Source: Ramlibacter sp. (GTDB lineage: Bacteria; Pseudomonadota; Gammaproteobacteria; Burkholderiales; Burkholderiaceae). From it: a DNA stretch of 5,638 nt. The stretch is from the NCBI GenBank assembly GCA_014376915.1, contig JACMQP010000522.1, forward strand, positions 1 to 5,638, given 5' to 3'. Position 1 is the first letter of the stretch. Every line of letters begins with the position of its first letter. A model generated the notes under the pieces. The model had not been told where the DNA came from. It saw only the letters and a program-made list of their open reading frames with translations, and did not search any database. A program made the translations under genes and the position numbers. Below are positions 709 to 5,638 of this stretch, piece after piece.

Positions 709-2131
709 CGCGCTCAGGCAGGGCGACGCGGCGCGGCAACGGCTGCGCGCCACTTATTTCGACACCCAGGACGGCGCGCTGGTCGCGGATGGCATCGTGG
801 TGCGGATGCGCCAGGAAGGCCGCAAGTGGGTGCAGACCGCCAAGGCCCCCGGCCGCGGCCCGCTCGAGCGGCTCGAGCACAACGCGCCGGTGGCCCCCGA
901 CGAGGCCGGCCTGGTGCCAGCGGTGGACCTGGCGCGCCACAGCGGGACGGCGGTCGGGGATGCAATCCGGCGCGCACTCGGAAGCAAGGCGGACGCCGCC
1001 GTCCCGCGGCTCATTCCGCTGTACGAAACCGACGTCACCCGCCTGTCCGTGTGCGTGCGGCGCGGCGAATCCGAGGTGGAAATCGCGCTCGACGAAGGCC
1101 GCATCGTCGCTGGCGCCCAGTCGTCGCCCTTGCGCGAACTGGAACTGGAACTGAAACAGGGCCGACCCGAGGATGCGGTGCTGCTGGCGCGCGAAGGCTG
1201 CCGCATCCATGGCCTCTGGCTCAGCACCATCAGCAAGTCCATGAAAGGTCAGCGGCTGGCGGGCACGGTTGCGCCGCCGGCGCACGTCGCACGGGCACGC
1301 GGCATCGAGCGCCGCGCCGGCGGCCACGCCTTTGTGCAGGCTGTCGTCGGCGCCTGTCTGGAGCAGGTCACGGAATATGCCAGCGAAATCGCCGGCGGTA
1401 GCACAGACGCCGAACACATCCACCAGCTGCGCGTGGGCATCCGGCGGCTACGCACGGCGCTGCGGGAACTGGCCGGACTCACCGATGGAATCGATAAGGC
1501 CTGGGAAGCGCCGCTGGTCGAGGTGTTCCGGGCGTTGGGTCGCCATCGCGACCAGGGCCACCTGGGGCGCAACGTCGAACCGGTGATCGAGGGGGCGGGC
1601 GGTCCGGCCGTCGAGGCCGCGGCGCTGGCGACCGACGTTCCCGATCCAGGCCTGGCGGTGCGCTCGCCCGCGTTCCAGGACAGCCTGCTGGCACTGCTCG
1701 CGTTCGTGCACCGCGAAGCCGGTCACGACGGTCCGGGCCATGACGAGACGAAGAAGCGCGTCCGCAAGGCGCTGGCCAGACTCCATGCGCTGGTGCTCAA
1801 GGACGGCGCCCGTTTCGCCAGCCTGGACGAGCCGCACCAGCACCGCGTGCGCAAGCGGGTCAAGCGCATGCGCTATCTGGCCGAATTCGCCGCGCCGCTG
1901 TTCCGCTCACGCAAGACCCGGGCCTTCGCCGACAGCCTCAAGCCGCTGCAGGATGCACTGGGCGGGTACAACGACGAGCTGATGGCCCTGCACGCCTACC
2001 GCGCGCTGGCACCGCAGCAGCCCGAGGCCTGGTTCGCTGTCGGCTGGCTGAGTGCCCGACGTGAGCCCCATGCGCTGGCTTGCCAGCGGGCGGTCGAGGC
2101 GTTTTCCCGAACCCGCCCGTTCTGGGAGTGA
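644..2131 (+). CDS. CYTH-CHAD domain protein (predicted inorganic triphosphatase / polyphosphate-binding)
   Basis: The protein has 495 residues and two domains, like E. coli YgiF but somewhat longer. The N-terminal CYTH domain (about 1-200) shows the ExExK signature EFELK at residues 5-9, basic triphosphate-tunnel residues R54, R56, R60, K61 and K67, the YETDVTRL strand near 127, and the acidic strand RELELELK at 164-171, a usual metal-binding element. The C-terminal CHAD domain (about 225-490) has both histidine/arginine helices: [11 protein letters not shown] from residue 260 and [14 protein letters not shown] from 398. CYTH enzymes of this type hydrolyse inorganic triphosphate, and CHAD domains bind polyphosphate; both are family knowledge. 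The start is fixed by a TGA at 641-643 immediately before the ATG and by the CYTH signature at residue 5. GTG at 650 is the only close alternative. No clear Shine-Dalgarno is visible. Its tail-to-tail neighbour is an exopolyphosphatase, which supports a polyphosphate role. Confidence 0.93.
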
Positions 2132-2140
2132 AACTGCCGG

Positions 2141-3625
2141 TCACGCCAGGGCCAGGATCCAGGGCGTCTTCTGCCAGGCAATGACTTCTTCGCGCAGCAG
2201 GTGCGCCGACTGCGGCCAGGCCGCGGGCCAGTCCGGCCGCAGGCTGAGCGTGATGACATGGCCGTCGCCGCTCAACTGCAAGCCCTTGAGGTCCGGGTCG
2301 CGCCGCGCGTGGCACAAGATCACCGCCAGCCGCAGGCACAGCAGCTGGTGCACGAACAGGTCGTCCTCGAAGTCCGCATCGAGCTTGCGCAGCTTGCCGC
2401 GGTGGCCCAGCACCAGCAAGCTGAGCCGGTGCAGTTCCGGCTGGGCGAAACCGGGCGCGTCGGCATTGTCCAGAATGTAGGCGCCATGCTTGTGGTAATC
2501 GCTGTGCGCGATCTGGCTGCCGATTTCGTGCAGCTGGGTGGCCCAGCCGAGCTTGCGCTGCTGCCGGTCGAGTTCGAGCGTGCTGTCGCCGCTGCGAAGC
2601 TGGCGCAGCAACTGGCCCGCGACCTTGCCGACCCGTGTCGCCTGCGGTGCATCGACGCCAAATTTGGAGGCCAGCCGCTGCACGGTGCTGGAGCGGATGT
2701 CGGTTTCGCTATGCTCGCGGTCCAGCAGGTCGTACAGGACGCCATGCCGCAGGGCGCCCTGGGCAGCTTGCATCTCGTCGATCTCCAGCAGGTCGAACAC
2801 CGCCTGCAGCACGCTCAAGCCACCGCCGATCACCGGGCGACGGTCGTCCTTGATGCCGTCCAGCCGCAGCTTGTCGGCCGATCGCGCGGCCAGCAGGCGC
2901 TCGTGCAGCCATGCCAGGCCATCGCGGTTGATGACGCCGGGCGGCCAGCCCGCCGCCCCGAGCACGTCGGCCACCGCGCCGATGGTGCCGGAGGCGCCGT
3001 AGGCCACGTCCCAGTCGCCGCGCCGGTAGGAGCCGAGCGCTTCGTCCAGCACGGCCTTCGCCGCAACCTCGGCCCGCGTGAATGCGCTTTCGGTGAACAG
3101 GCCTTCGGGGAAGTATTTCATCGACCACGCGACGCTGCCGACCCGGTAGCTTTCGGTCACGTCGGCGGCGAAGTGCCGGCCAAGGATCAGTTCGGTCGAG
3201 CGCCCGCCGATGTCGACGACCAGCCGCCGCTCGTCCGACTGCGGCAGCAGGTGAGCGACCCCCTGGTAGATCAGCCGCGCCTCTTCCCGGCCGGAGATGA
3301 CGTCGATCGGAAAGCCGAGGATGGCGTGGGCGCGCTCCAGGAACACGTCGCGGTTGAGCGCCTCGCGCAGGGTCTGGGTGCCGACAGCGCGGACCTGTGC
3401 CTTCTTGAACCCTGCCAGCCGCTCGCCGAACCGCGCGACGCAATCCCAGCCGCGCTGCATCGCTTCGGGCGTGAGGTTGCGCCCCTCGTCCAGACCGTTG
3501 CCCTGGCGCACGGTTTCCTTCAGGTATTCGGTACGGTGGATCTGCCCGTGGTCGAGGCGGCCGATTTCGAGCCGGTAGCTGTTCGACCCGAGATCGACCG
3601 CGGCAAGCAGGGTTCCGTTTTGCAT
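2141..3625 (-). CDS. ppx: Exopolyphosphatase (Ppx/GppA family)
   Basis: This cytoplasmic enzyme should release orthophosphate from the ends of polyphosphate chains; some family members also hydrolyse pppGpp. It has 494 residues, a normal length for the proteobacterial family. The ASKHA-fold motifs are in order: phosphate-1 AAVDLGSNSYRLEIG (8-22), the acidic SGREEARLIY (111-120) expected to hold the catalytic glutamate (E114/E115), phosphate-2 DIGGRSTELILG (138-149), and YGASGTIGAVADVLGA (209-224). The C-terminal HD-like part carries LHEIG (365-369) and HSDYHKHGAYIL (374-385). The open frame extends to base 3802, but those 59 residues are unlike the family and run into the 3' end of the neighbouring gene, so the ATG at 3625-3623 (MQNGTLLAAVDLG) is chosen. 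The phosphate-2 loop reads GGRSTE where many homologues have GGGSTE. A 70-base gap follows the upstream gene, with no strong promoter, so cotranscription is likely but not proven. GppA is the main alternative. Confidence 0.93.
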   Translation of the reverse strand: MQNGTLLAAVDLGSNSYRLEIGRLDHGQIHRTEYLKETVRQGNGLDEGRNLTPEAMQRGWDCVARFGERLAGFKKAQVRAVGTQTLREALNRDVFLERAHAILGFPIDVISGREEARLIYQGVAHLLPQSDERRLVVDIGGRSTELILGRHFAADVTESYRVGSVAWSMKYFPEGLFTESAFTRAEVAAKAVLDEALGSYRRGDWDVAYGASGTIGAVADVLGAAGWPPGVINRDGLAWLHERLLAARSADKLRLDGIKDDRRPVIGGGLSVLQAVFDLLEIDEMQAAQGALRHGVLYDLLDREHSETDIRSSTVQRLASKFGVDAPQATRVGKVAGQLLRQLRSGDSTLELDRQQRKLGWATQLHEIGSQIAHSDYHKHGAYILDNADAPGFAQPELHRLSLLVLGHRGKLRKLDADFEDDLFVHQLLCLRLAVILCHARRDPDLKGLQLSGDGHVITLSLRPDWPAAWPQSAHLLREEVIAWQKTPWILALA

Positions 3626-3695
3626 CGAGCAGGGTTTCAGGGAGCGGCGGTCAGCATAGCATCCGTCCCGGTGGGAGCGGGCCTGGTCCAGGTCT

Positions 3696-4841
3696 TTAAC
3701 CGACCACCCGTCCGTCCGCGGTGAGCATGCTCTGGGTGACGTAAGTGGCGCTGCGGTGTTTCGCATCGAAGCTGACGCGATAGCCGCCCAGGTCGACCGC
3801 ACTGCGCTTCTGGAATGCTGCCAGGGCGGTTGCGCGGCTGACCGGGCCGTCGATGTCGGCCAATACCTGGTACGTGTACTGGGCGGCGATGAAGCCGGCC
3901 AGGCTCAGGGCCACCGGCGGTTCGTCGAACAGCCTTGCCATCACCTCCCGGTAGCGCCGCACGATCGGCACCGACGAGGCGGTGACCATCGGGACCGCCT
4001 GGGTCGCGATCACGGGCGTGGACTTCGCGCCGCCCATCTGCAGCACGGTCTGCAGGTTGACGTCGGCCAGCGCCACCACGTACCGCTGCCGTGCCTGCCG
4101 ATCCAACCCCTGGGTGAACTGCACCAGCTCGGGCGTGCCGCCGATGAACAGCAGGACGGCGGGGGTGGCCCGGTCCATCCGCTGGCCCAGTTGCGCCAGG
4201 TCGGTGCCGACCGGGTAGCTGCGCAGCCTGAGCCTGAGTTCGGCGGCGCTGCGGGCCGCGTCGTTGCGGTACAGGTCGTGTTCGCGGCGGGAGGCGAACA
4301 CGACGCCGACTTCCTGCACGCCGGTCGCCGACAGCGACTTCAGCGCGTGGGCGATCTGCTCCTGGCGCGCCGCGAAGATGGGAAAGGTGCGTTCATCGAT
4401 CTCCATGATCGAGCTCTGCAGCCAGGGCGCCACATGAGCGATGTTCAGTCCCTCCTTGCGCAGCAGCCCCACCAGTTGCAACGCGACCGGGTCGCTCACA
4501 GTGCCCGAGATTGCGACGCAGGCGGGGTTATCGCGGATCGACTGGACGGCGGCCGCCAGGCTGGCCGGCGTGCCGTCCACCTCGATGGCCGAATGCTGGA
4601 CCGGCCGCCCGCGCAAACCGCCGCGGCTGTTGATGTCCTGCCATGCCGCGCGCGAGCCGATCAGAAAATCCCTGGCGACATCCTGCTGCTCGTTGGATGC
4701 GTCGACGATCTGTGCCACCGTGATCGGGCGGCCCGGCAGGCGCCCGGGCTGGGCCCAGGCGGCGCCGGTGGTCGTGAAGACCGTCGCGGCGGCCGACTGC
4801 AGGGCCAGCCTGCGGCTGAGACCGGTCAGGGATGCGTTCAT
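3696..4841 (-). CDS. Periplasmic type-1 ABC substrate-binding protein (LivK / Peripla_BP_6-like), ligand unknown
   Basis: This is a predicted 381-residue periplasmic binding protein. An N-terminal signal peptide (basic SRR at 9-11, hydrophobic stretch, AWA at 28-30 before Gln31) precedes a type-1 binding-protein fold. That fold shows a first strand ITVAQIVDAS, a helix region with GSRAAWQDINSRGGLRGRPV, then PACVAISGTVSDPVALQLVGLL, a hinge-region strand VQEVGVVFASRREHDLYRNDAA, and PAVLLFIGGTPELVQFTQGL. These resemble leucine/isoleucine/valine-type receptors. The SRRLAL stretch resembles a twin-arginine motif but lacks its usual phenylalanine, so Sec export is equally possible. ATG at 4841 is preferred; TTG at 4847 would add only two residues. 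The gene starts 17 bases after the FAS1 stop codon and ends 70 bases before ppx, all on one strand. No permease or ATPase gene is in the window, so it is an orphan here. Its position behind a PhoB box hints at a phosphate-starvation role, but the ligand cannot be read from sequence. Confidence 0.85.
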   Translation of the reverse strand: MNASLTGLSRRLALQSAAATVFTTTGAAWAQPGRLPGRPITVAQIVDASNEQQDVARDFLIGSRAAWQDINSRGGLRGRPVQHSAIEVDGTPASLAAAVQSIRDNPACVAISGTVSDPVALQLVGLLRKEGLNIAHVAPWLQSSIMEIDERTFPIFAARQEQIAHALKSLSATGVQEVGVVFASRREHDLYRNDAARSAAELRLRLRSYPVGTDLAQLGQRMDRATPAVLLFIGGTPELVQFTQGLDRQARQRYVVALADVNLQTVLQMGGAKSTPVIATQAVPMVTASSVPIVRRYREVMARLFDEPPVALSLAGFIAAQYTYQVLADIDGPVSRATALAAFQKRSAVDLGGYRVSFDAKHRSATYVTQSMLTADGRVVG

Positions 4842-4858
4842 GGGCAAGCGCGCTGCAT

Positions 4859-5335
4859 TCAGCGACGCGGCGGCAGCAGGACGCGGTCGATCGAATAGAC
4901 CACGCCGTTGCTGGCCATGACCTCGTGGCCCTGGGCCATGGCGTCTTCCACCGTCACGAAATCGCCGGCCCGCGCCAGTCCGACCTCGGCACCGTTGGCC
5001 GTCTTGACGTTGCCGGTCTTGATCTCGGCAGCAGTGATGCGCGCCGGCAGGACGTGGTAGCTCAGCACTGCCTTCAATCGAGCCGGATCTTTCAGTTCGT
5101 CCATCGTTTTGGCGGGCACCGCCTTGAACGCCTCGTTGGTCGGGGCGAAGAGGGTGTAGGGCCCGGCGCCGCGGAGCATGTCGGCCAGGCCGGCCTGCTG
5201 CACCAGGCCGTTGAGTGTGCTGAGCTGCGGGTCGCGCGCCAGCGTGTCGGCCACCGACACCGGGGCCAAGGGGGTGGCGCAGCCGGCCAGCACGGCCAGC
5301 AGGGGAGCAGCGAAAAGGACGCGAAGATTCAGCAT
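4859..5335 (-). CDS. FAS1 (fasciclin / beta-Ig-H3) domain lipoprotein
   Basis: This is a small secreted protein of 158 residues with a single FAS1 domain. The N-terminus MLNLRVLFAAPLLAVLAGC is a lipoprotein signal with lipobox LAGC and lipidated Cys19. Ala at position +2 after Cys suggests outer-membrane rather than inner-membrane retention. The FAS1 domain covers about 28-156, with the H1-like motif TLFAPTNEAF (61-70), YHVLP (93-97) and the closing strand NGVVYSIDRVLLPP (143-156). FAS1 domains are commonly adhesive or extracellular; no enzymatic role is established for bacterial versions. The open frame continues upstream to 5542, but that extension has no signal peptide, runs across the PhoB boxes and overlaps pstS, so the ATG at 5335-5333 is chosen. 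No strong Shine-Dalgarno is visible. It is the first gene after the minus-strand PhoB box and is followed closely by the substrate-binding protein, so it likely leads a phosphate-controlled transcript. Confidence 0.9.
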   Translation of the reverse strand: MLNLRVLFAAPLLAVLAGCATPLAPVSVADTLARDPQLSTLNGLVQQAGLADMLRGAGPYTLFAPTNEAFKAVPAKTMDELKDPARLKAVLSYHVLPARITAAEIKTGNVKTANGAEVGLARAGDFVTVEDAMAQGHEVMASNGVVYSIDRVLLPPRR

Positions 5336-5367: not shown

Positions 5368-5373
5368 AGGCTA
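5368..5373 (-). promoter_or_regulatory. Candidate -10 hexamer for the FAS1 gene
   Basis: Read on the minus strand the hexamer is TAGCCT, matching TATAAT at three of six positions. It begins exactly 10 bases after the minus-strand PhoB box, the same spacing as on the pstS side. It would place transcription start near 5361, about 25 bases before the FAS1 ATG. The hexamer is weak, which is usual for activator-dependent promoters, so the call rests on spacing and symmetry. Confidence 0.4.
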
Positions 5374-5383
5374 GGGGCGGCCC

Positions 5384-5401
5384 GTGACAGTACCGTGACA
5401 G
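5384..5401 (-). promoter_or_regulatory. PhoB box driving the FAS1 / binding-protein / ppx direction
   Basis: On the minus strand this reads CTGTCACGGTACTGTCAC: two 7-base direct repeats CTGTCAC separated by four bases. That is the architecture of the PhoB half-site pair known from E. coli (CTGTCAT, 4-base spacer, CTGTCAT). Each half site differs from that consensus only at its last base. It is oriented toward the FAS1 gene, whose ATG is 48 bases downstream, and overlaps where a -35 element would sit. Regulation by PhoB is inferred from the motif and from pstS next door. Confidence 0.82.
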
Positions 5402-5403
5402 CG

Positions 5404-5421
5404 CTGTCATGCGTCTGTCAC
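5404..5421 (+). promoter_or_regulatory. PhoB box driving pstS
   Basis: The site reads CTGTCATGCGTCTGTCAC: a perfect CTGTCAT half site, a four-base spacer, and CTGTCAC. This is an almost exact match to the known PhoB box. It lies 50 bases before the pstS ATG and takes the place of a -35 element. pstS is a classical PhoB target, so motif, orientation and gene identity agree. Two bases (5402-5403) separate it from the minus-strand box. Confidence 0.9.
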
Positions 5422-5431
5422 ACAAGCTTCG

Positions 5432-5437
5432 TAAAGT
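5432..5437 (+). promoter_or_regulatory. Candidate -10 hexamer for pstS
   Basis: The hexamer TAAAGT matches TATAAT at four of six positions and begins 10 bases after the plus-strand PhoB box, the spacing expected for PhoB-dependent sigma-70 promoters. Transcription would start near 5444, giving a leader of about 28 bases that contains the ribosome binding site. Confidence 0.55.
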
Positions 5438-5471: not shown

Positions 5472-5638
5472 ATGAACAACCAGATCCTTCGTACCGCCGC
5501 CCTGTCGCTGGCCGGTTTCTCGGTCCTGTCCTTCGCCGGCACCGCCGCCGCCCAGGACGCGACCGGCGCCGGCGCCAGCTTCCCGGCACCGCTTTATTCG
5601 AAGTGGGCCTCCGACTACAACAAGGCAACCGGCGCCAA
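5472..5638 (+). CDS. pstS: Phosphate ABC transporter substrate-binding protein PstS (3'-truncated by window edge)
   Basis: These are the first 55 codons of the periplasmic high-affinity phosphate receptor, which delivers orthophosphate to the PstC-PstA-PstB transporter. The N-terminus MNNQILRTAALSLAGF and its continuation form a Sec signal peptide with likely cleavage after Ala27 (TAAA before Gln28). The mature start TGAGASFPAPLYSKWASDYN is the hallmark PstS N-terminus: its TGAGxxFPAPxY loop contributes backbone and threonine/serine contacts to phosphate, and E. coli PstS has the near-identical TGAGATFPAPVYAKW. The start is supported by the AGAGGTGA ribosome binding site and by the PhoB box and -10 upstream. 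pstC, pstA, pstB and phoU often follow and may lie beyond the window. Confidence 0.96.
   Translation, partial: MNNQILRTAALSLAGFSVLSFAGTAAAQDATGAGASFPAPLYSKWASDYNKATGA

Follow-up and report, generated by a model that had tools for sequence, protein, structure and literature searches.

The fas1-pstS intergenic region of the window (the whole stretch of Ramlibacter sp. DNA analyzed here, 5,638 nucleotides) very probably holds a divergent pair of predicted PhoB-activated promoters, one directed toward pst and the other toward a probable fas1-BP6-ppx operon, and the 2-bp packing of their boxes would be a local compaction. According to passages of PMC4563254, PMC4971064 and PMC10294691, phosphorylated PhoB binds its box and recruits the sigma-70 polymerase. 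At low phosphate, phosphorylated PhoB would sit on each direct-repeat box of the window as a tandem dimer that takes the place of the -35 element, and the bound PhoB would recruit sigma-70 polymerase to a -10 sited 10 bp downstream, with one promoter firing toward pstS and the other, independently, toward fas1-BP6-ppx. PhoB binding, phosphate induction and independent firing are what we infer from sequence comparisons. The regulator itself is at hand in relatives, as phoB (TIGR02154, above cut-off) was found in all 5 genomes tested from the genus of G001, on the contig and strand of pstS and 3.4-3.6 kb downstream of it.

The initial annotation described two opposed 18-bp boxes separated by 2 bp, with the dyad center between 5402 and 5403 and the box centers 20 bp apart, and reading the sequence confirmed all these positions (Table 1). 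It also counted four copies of the same 7-mer; three are indeed identical (CTGTCAC on either strand), but the fourth is CTGTCAT and differs in its last base. Both boxes consist of two 7-bp CTGTCAY direct repeats with a 4-bp spacer, and nothing else in the window matches YTGTCAYN4YTGTCAY exactly. The four-repeat arrangement is far above chance: it scores 28/28 against the four-half-site template, and when the window was dinucleotide-shuffled 1000 times the best score per shuffle was 15-20. Compared with its own reverse complement, the 38-mer is identical at 30 of 38 positions. As had been claimed, a candidate -10 lies 10 bases beyond each box, and both hexamers have the T-A-...-T form. A generic sigma-70 scan gave no promoter at either box position, which is expected if the box stands in for the -35 element.

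Table 1. Features of the window and of its fas1-pstS intergenic region.
Feature	Position	Strand	Evidence or remark
MCP end and CYTH-CHAD protein	window, before ppx		window gene reading
ppx (Ppx/GppA phosphatase)	2141..3625	-	PF02541, PF21447
BP6 (Peripla_BP_6), periplasmic binding protein, 11 bp past fas1	3696..4847	-	PF13458, E 2.7e-21
fas1, 158-aa predicted lipoprotein with a single fasciclin (FAS1) domain	4859..5335	-	Pfam PF02469, E 2.9e-32; lipobox LAGC
Candidate fas1 -10, TAGCCT	5368..5373 (read 5373-5368)	-	10 bp past box; TANGCT and TANCCT commonest in relatives
fas1-side box, CTGTCAC-GGTA-CTGTCAC	5384..5401	-	exact match; half-sites 5401-5395 and 5390-5384 (GTGACAG at 5384-5390 and 5395-5401)
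2-bp gap separating the boxes (dyad center 5402/5403)	5402..5403	.	sequence
pstS-side box, CTGTCAT-GCGT-CTGTCAC	5404..5421	+	exact match; half-sites CTGTCAT 5404-5410 and CTGTCAC 5415-5421
Candidate pstS -10, TAAAGT	5432..5437	+	10 bp past box; TANAGT commonest in relatives
pstS, first 55 codons, truncated by window edge	5473..5638	+	65% identity to L001 PstS residues 5-52

The boxes are located between the starts of fas1 (5335) and pstS (5473), two divergent genes. Of the 120 protein matches listed for the window, the best that carry organism names come from Ramlibacter and Caenimonas, genera to which the source is probably close. The PstS of locus L001, to which the truncated pstS product was compared, scores above the NCBIfam PstS cut-offs. 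On the minus strand, the gene order, the short gaps (11 bp for fas1-BP6 and 70 bp for BP6-ppx) and a scan that found no terminator-like sites in window positions 2100-5000 suggest that fas1, BP6 and ppx form one probable operon, with BP6 as its second and ppx as its third gene. The ppx product matches the NCBIfam GppA and exopolyphosphatase models below their cut-offs.

The divergent gene pair is widespread among relatives. A Fas1 orthologue was found in 94 of the 399 family-sample genomes, and fas1 and pstS are divergent, 137-332 bp apart, in the 91 of 91 testable family genomes as well as in the window, L002 and L003; the family survey excluded G023 (match at the contig end) and L104 and L185 (stretches without pstS). 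These 94 loci and 24 further ones from the genus of G001 (the genus with the closest genome matches of the window, and with a Fas1 match in 28 of 60 genomes) make up a first set in which divergence was universal (118/118). A second set was drawn from another genus, with a Fas1 match in 90 of 103 genomes plus locus L283 and with known genomes, contig-edge matches and second matches excluded. Of the 85 stretches examined there, 83 carried both genes, always divergent (L265 and L326 are without pstS), bringing the total to 201 loci.

To locate promoters in these loci, each strand was searched for composites in which a box is followed after 9-11 bp by a T-A-...-T hexamer, with a promoter called at a score of at least 12; the score rewards TA...T, which in part builds in the conservation of these three bases. 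This threshold is reached by 0.5-0.6% of dinucleotide shuffles of the first set (0.5% on the fas1 side), and was reached in that set by 118/118 loci on the pstS side and 108/118 on the fas1 side, and by 83/83 on each side in the second set. Although 9-11 bp were allowed, the best composite has exactly 10 bp between box and -10 in 201/201 loci for pstS and 200/201 for fas1, a distance fixed nearly throughout, as for a box sitting in the -35 place. Strict spacing of the pho box to the core promoter is described in a passage of PMC10294691. The initial annotation had staked its reading on conservation of the left-hand repeats in relatives, and these are conserved, all but one of the best fas1-side boxes having a -10 at exactly 10 bp.

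The pstS side shows two half-sites only across the first 118 loci. The fas1 side is more extended in the same loci: a third one is usually present at -11, with a score averaging 4.2 (base 1.7), and at -22 there is a partial fourth. The third half-site is absent from the window and from its nearest kin, L186, L187 and L188. As regards the spacers, the available description of the E. coli pho box gives an A/T-rich 4-bp spacer, whereas across the 201 loci the spacers are 48% AT on the pstS side and 58% on the fas1 side, against an intergenic background of 49%, and in the window they read GGTA and GCGT. Because the 4-bp spacers are not A/T-rich, we file the boxes as a predicted clade variant working like a pho box and not as a strict E. 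coli-type box.

While the two predicted promoters are conserved in many relatives, their tight packing is a rare local variant in the genomes compared. The gap between the boxes ranges from 2 to 156 bp in the 201 loci, with a median of 55: 3 loci have 2-3 bp, none 4-15, 19 have 16-30, 165 have 31-75 and 14 more than 75. The three gaps below 16 bp (2, 2 and 3 bp) belong to the window, L081 and L197. A scan of relatives for the four-repeat arrangement, as the initial annotation proposed, showed it to be rare, TGACA-N6-TGACA-N0-30-TGTCA-N6-TGTCA occurring in 6/399 family genomes and 1/369 class genomes; both pattern searches were centered on G001, which is the sole class match and also belongs to the six. 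A four-repeat arrangement of TGACA/TGTCA was also seen at 1501-1543 of L089, a stretch without pstS or fas1. The proposal that the 38-bp symmetric element is a unit coupling both promoters is not supported, as the spacing is free and in the closest relatives compared the boxes are 36, 60 and 69 bp apart (Fas1 89, 87 and 81% identical); Fas1 proteins with 90-91% identity (P0001-P0003) are encoded on metagenomic contigs. A coupled divergent switch of 38 bp would call for a conserved spacing, and none was found across the 201 loci. Coupling as a general feature is therefore unsupported by these comparisons; coupling specific to the few tight loci is possible. In a tree of Fas1 plus PstS, to which the window contributes 54 PstS residues, both tight-gap groups are nested among wide-gap loci (clade support of 1.0 for the window with L186, L187 and L188, 0.92 for L081/L197/L192 and 0.53 for the L081-L197 pairing), so that tight packing probably arose at least twice.

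We also analyzed pstS loci without fas1. The gene was found in 354 of the 399 family genomes, and its promoter is present in 79 of the 81 loci without fas1 that have enough upstream sequence; L241 and L250 show no box within 200 bp upstream. These two (L250 is a second pstS copy) and L253, which is too short, were excluded. Of the 79 loci left, 22 belong to the genus of G001 and 57 were obtained in the family search (40 picked by place and 17 ready loci). The nearest recognized neighbor of pstS is BP6 in 22 of them, ppx in 44 and another gene in 13. A left promoter scoring at least 12 lies beside BP6 in 20/22 loci, two of the 20 (L402 and L357) having no TA...T hexamer, and beside ppx in 31/44, the remaining 13 scoring below 12. 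Between the recognized gene and pstS there are 119-223 bp in the 13 ppx loci without a left promoter and from 142 to at least 350 bp in the 31 with one. The left promoter is also present beside divergent PhoX (L222, L243) and ABC ATPase (L386) genes, is weaker beside PPK2 (L380, score 11.5; the same score was obtained for L381, whose neighbor is without domain assignment), and is absent beside NrdD (L238), a GGDEF protein (L413) and hemerythrin (L392). Where the upstream gene is co-directional with pstS, as judged by eye in 5 loci, L233, L246, L248 and L399 have no left promoter and L237 scores 12.0. This pattern indicates that the left box mostly tracks fas1, BP6, ppx and other phosphorus-related divergent genes. 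Where fas1 is missing, phosphorus-related genes (L222, L243, L386, L380) can fill the divergent slot, with varying strength of the left box. A second pstS-like gene lies close to the first in G412, G414 and L399, and about 10 kb away in G402. Against the reading as two PhoB-activated promoters we count the spacers that are not A/T-rich, the boxless L241 and L250, the 13 ppx loci below 12, L402 and L357, and L237.

Some of these points would fit a simpler reading in which the pstS box alone is functional and the left repeats serve either as a decoy or as an accessory site upstream of pstS, since the 13 ppx loci with a low left score retain the pstS promoter, and L237 carries the left repeats with no divergent gene recognized. 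We consider it very improbable, because the left box has its own -10 at the fixed distance, faces away from pstS at a distance from it that varies freely, and is mostly lost beside unrelated or co-directional genes. Still more improbable is that the 14-bp perfect palindrome formed at the center, TGACAGCGCTGTCA, serves as the operator of another dimeric regulator. In the window this inverted repeat is perfect, and a perfect palindrome of such form also occurs at the pstS box of the wide-gap loci L107 and L117, which raised our estimate very slightly; however, L081 has the same spacing with an asymmetric center, TGACAGGGGTGTCA, and yet keeps both boxes, and in only a small minority of the 201 loci does a half-site in fas1 orientation lie 2 bp away from the pstS box, while boxes and -10s are nearly universal. 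In L107 and L117, these palindromes consist of opposed half-sites 2 bp apart, and the fas1 box is 41-50 bp off.

It is unlikely, though less so, that the window and the few loci like it carry a coupled switch, in which PhoB dimers and polymerases touching at 2 bp would lead to co-activation or mutual exclusion. The geometry would allow it: the 20 bp between box centers are about two turns, and the inferred starts are about 83 bp apart, so that, given the footprint of the polymerase, the upstream edges of the two polymerases would abut. Gaps of 2-3 bp also appear in two groups, the window and L081/L197, among wide-gap kin, with the empty interval of 4-15 bp above them. In its fuller form, PhoB dimers abutting at 2-3 bp would make a compact bidirectional promoter with at least two independent origins, where one shared, possibly mutually exclusive complex links pst with the fasciclin lipoprotein and Ppx/GppA operon; this we hold to be distinctly unlikely. 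Two further hints of coupling were followed up. The gap histogram of the first 118 loci suggested a period (p 0.0025 for the maximum over T 9.5-11.5, with duplicates removed), and nearest-pair gap differences gave p 0.0006-0.012 with all non-zero differences and 0.04-0.28 without differences below 3 bp. The phasing hypothesis was then fixed beforehand at T = 10.5 and 11 and run on the 83 fresh loci, which, projected on the phase of the first set, gave p 0.66, 0.76, 0.27 and 0.047 at T = 9.5, 10, 10.5 and 11; 70 of these 83 gaps are continuous from 48 to 60. Helical phasing is thus at best marginal at the pre-named periods, and our reading does not depend on it. In 14/201 loci, a count that includes related sequences and both the window and L081, a half-site in fas1 orientation lies 2 bp away from the pstS box; the null gave a mean of 1.3 and a maximum of 6 in 200 draws. 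An inverted half-site at 2 bp was found in 0/79 pstS loci without fas1 (2 have one at 3 bp and 2 at 4 bp), and we rejected it as a general feature of the pstS box. The periodicity and the half-site excess are hints without explanation, and against the coupled switch stand the wide gaps of the closest relatives. We favor two independent predicted promoters, the window being a compaction that misses the family-typical spacer and the third fas1-side half-site and not a dedicated 38-bp switch.

The predicted promoter pair resembles the PhoB promoters of E. coli (pstS, phoA and others) in its two 7-bp direct repeats 4 bp apart with an 11-bp period, the rigid distance to the -10, the site upstream of pstS and, in relatives, a nearby phoB. 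It differs from them in that the spacer is not A/T-rich, that two promoters stand back to back, and that 3-4 half-sites are usual on the fas1 side in relatives, against two in the window. For Halomonas aioBA, a passage of PMC4563254 places a single 18-bp Pho box close to the start codon of aioB, on the antisense strand. The PhoB site on the other strand is common to both, but a pair with two complete predicted promoters is found here. Diniz 2011 is said to report multiple Pho boxes at V. cholerae phoBR, which would likewise place several PhoB sites near one gene. The portions of the literature covered by our searches held no description of this divergent arrangement of Pho boxes.

These comparisons make the FAS1-domain lipoprotein gene a candidate unrecognized member of the Pho regulon. 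The portions of the literature covered held no link of fasciclin with the Pho regulon, PhoB or phosphate limitation, and in the available part of a microbial-mat study fasciclin transcripts are tied to low stream flow and not to phosphate. By our analysis, the predicted Pho regulon of 94 of the 399 family genomes (91 with the promoter region) would include a fasciclin lipoprotein, whose gene is followed by those of a binding protein and a Ppx/GppA phosphatase. Moreover, the natural series of inter-box distances makes the mutual influence of divergent PhoB promoters testable with native sequences. Among the 201 loci, L204, L195, L202, L207 and L209 carry fas1-side arrays of about 4 half-sites in 11-bp phase, the far end of which lies 2-4 bp from the pstS box.
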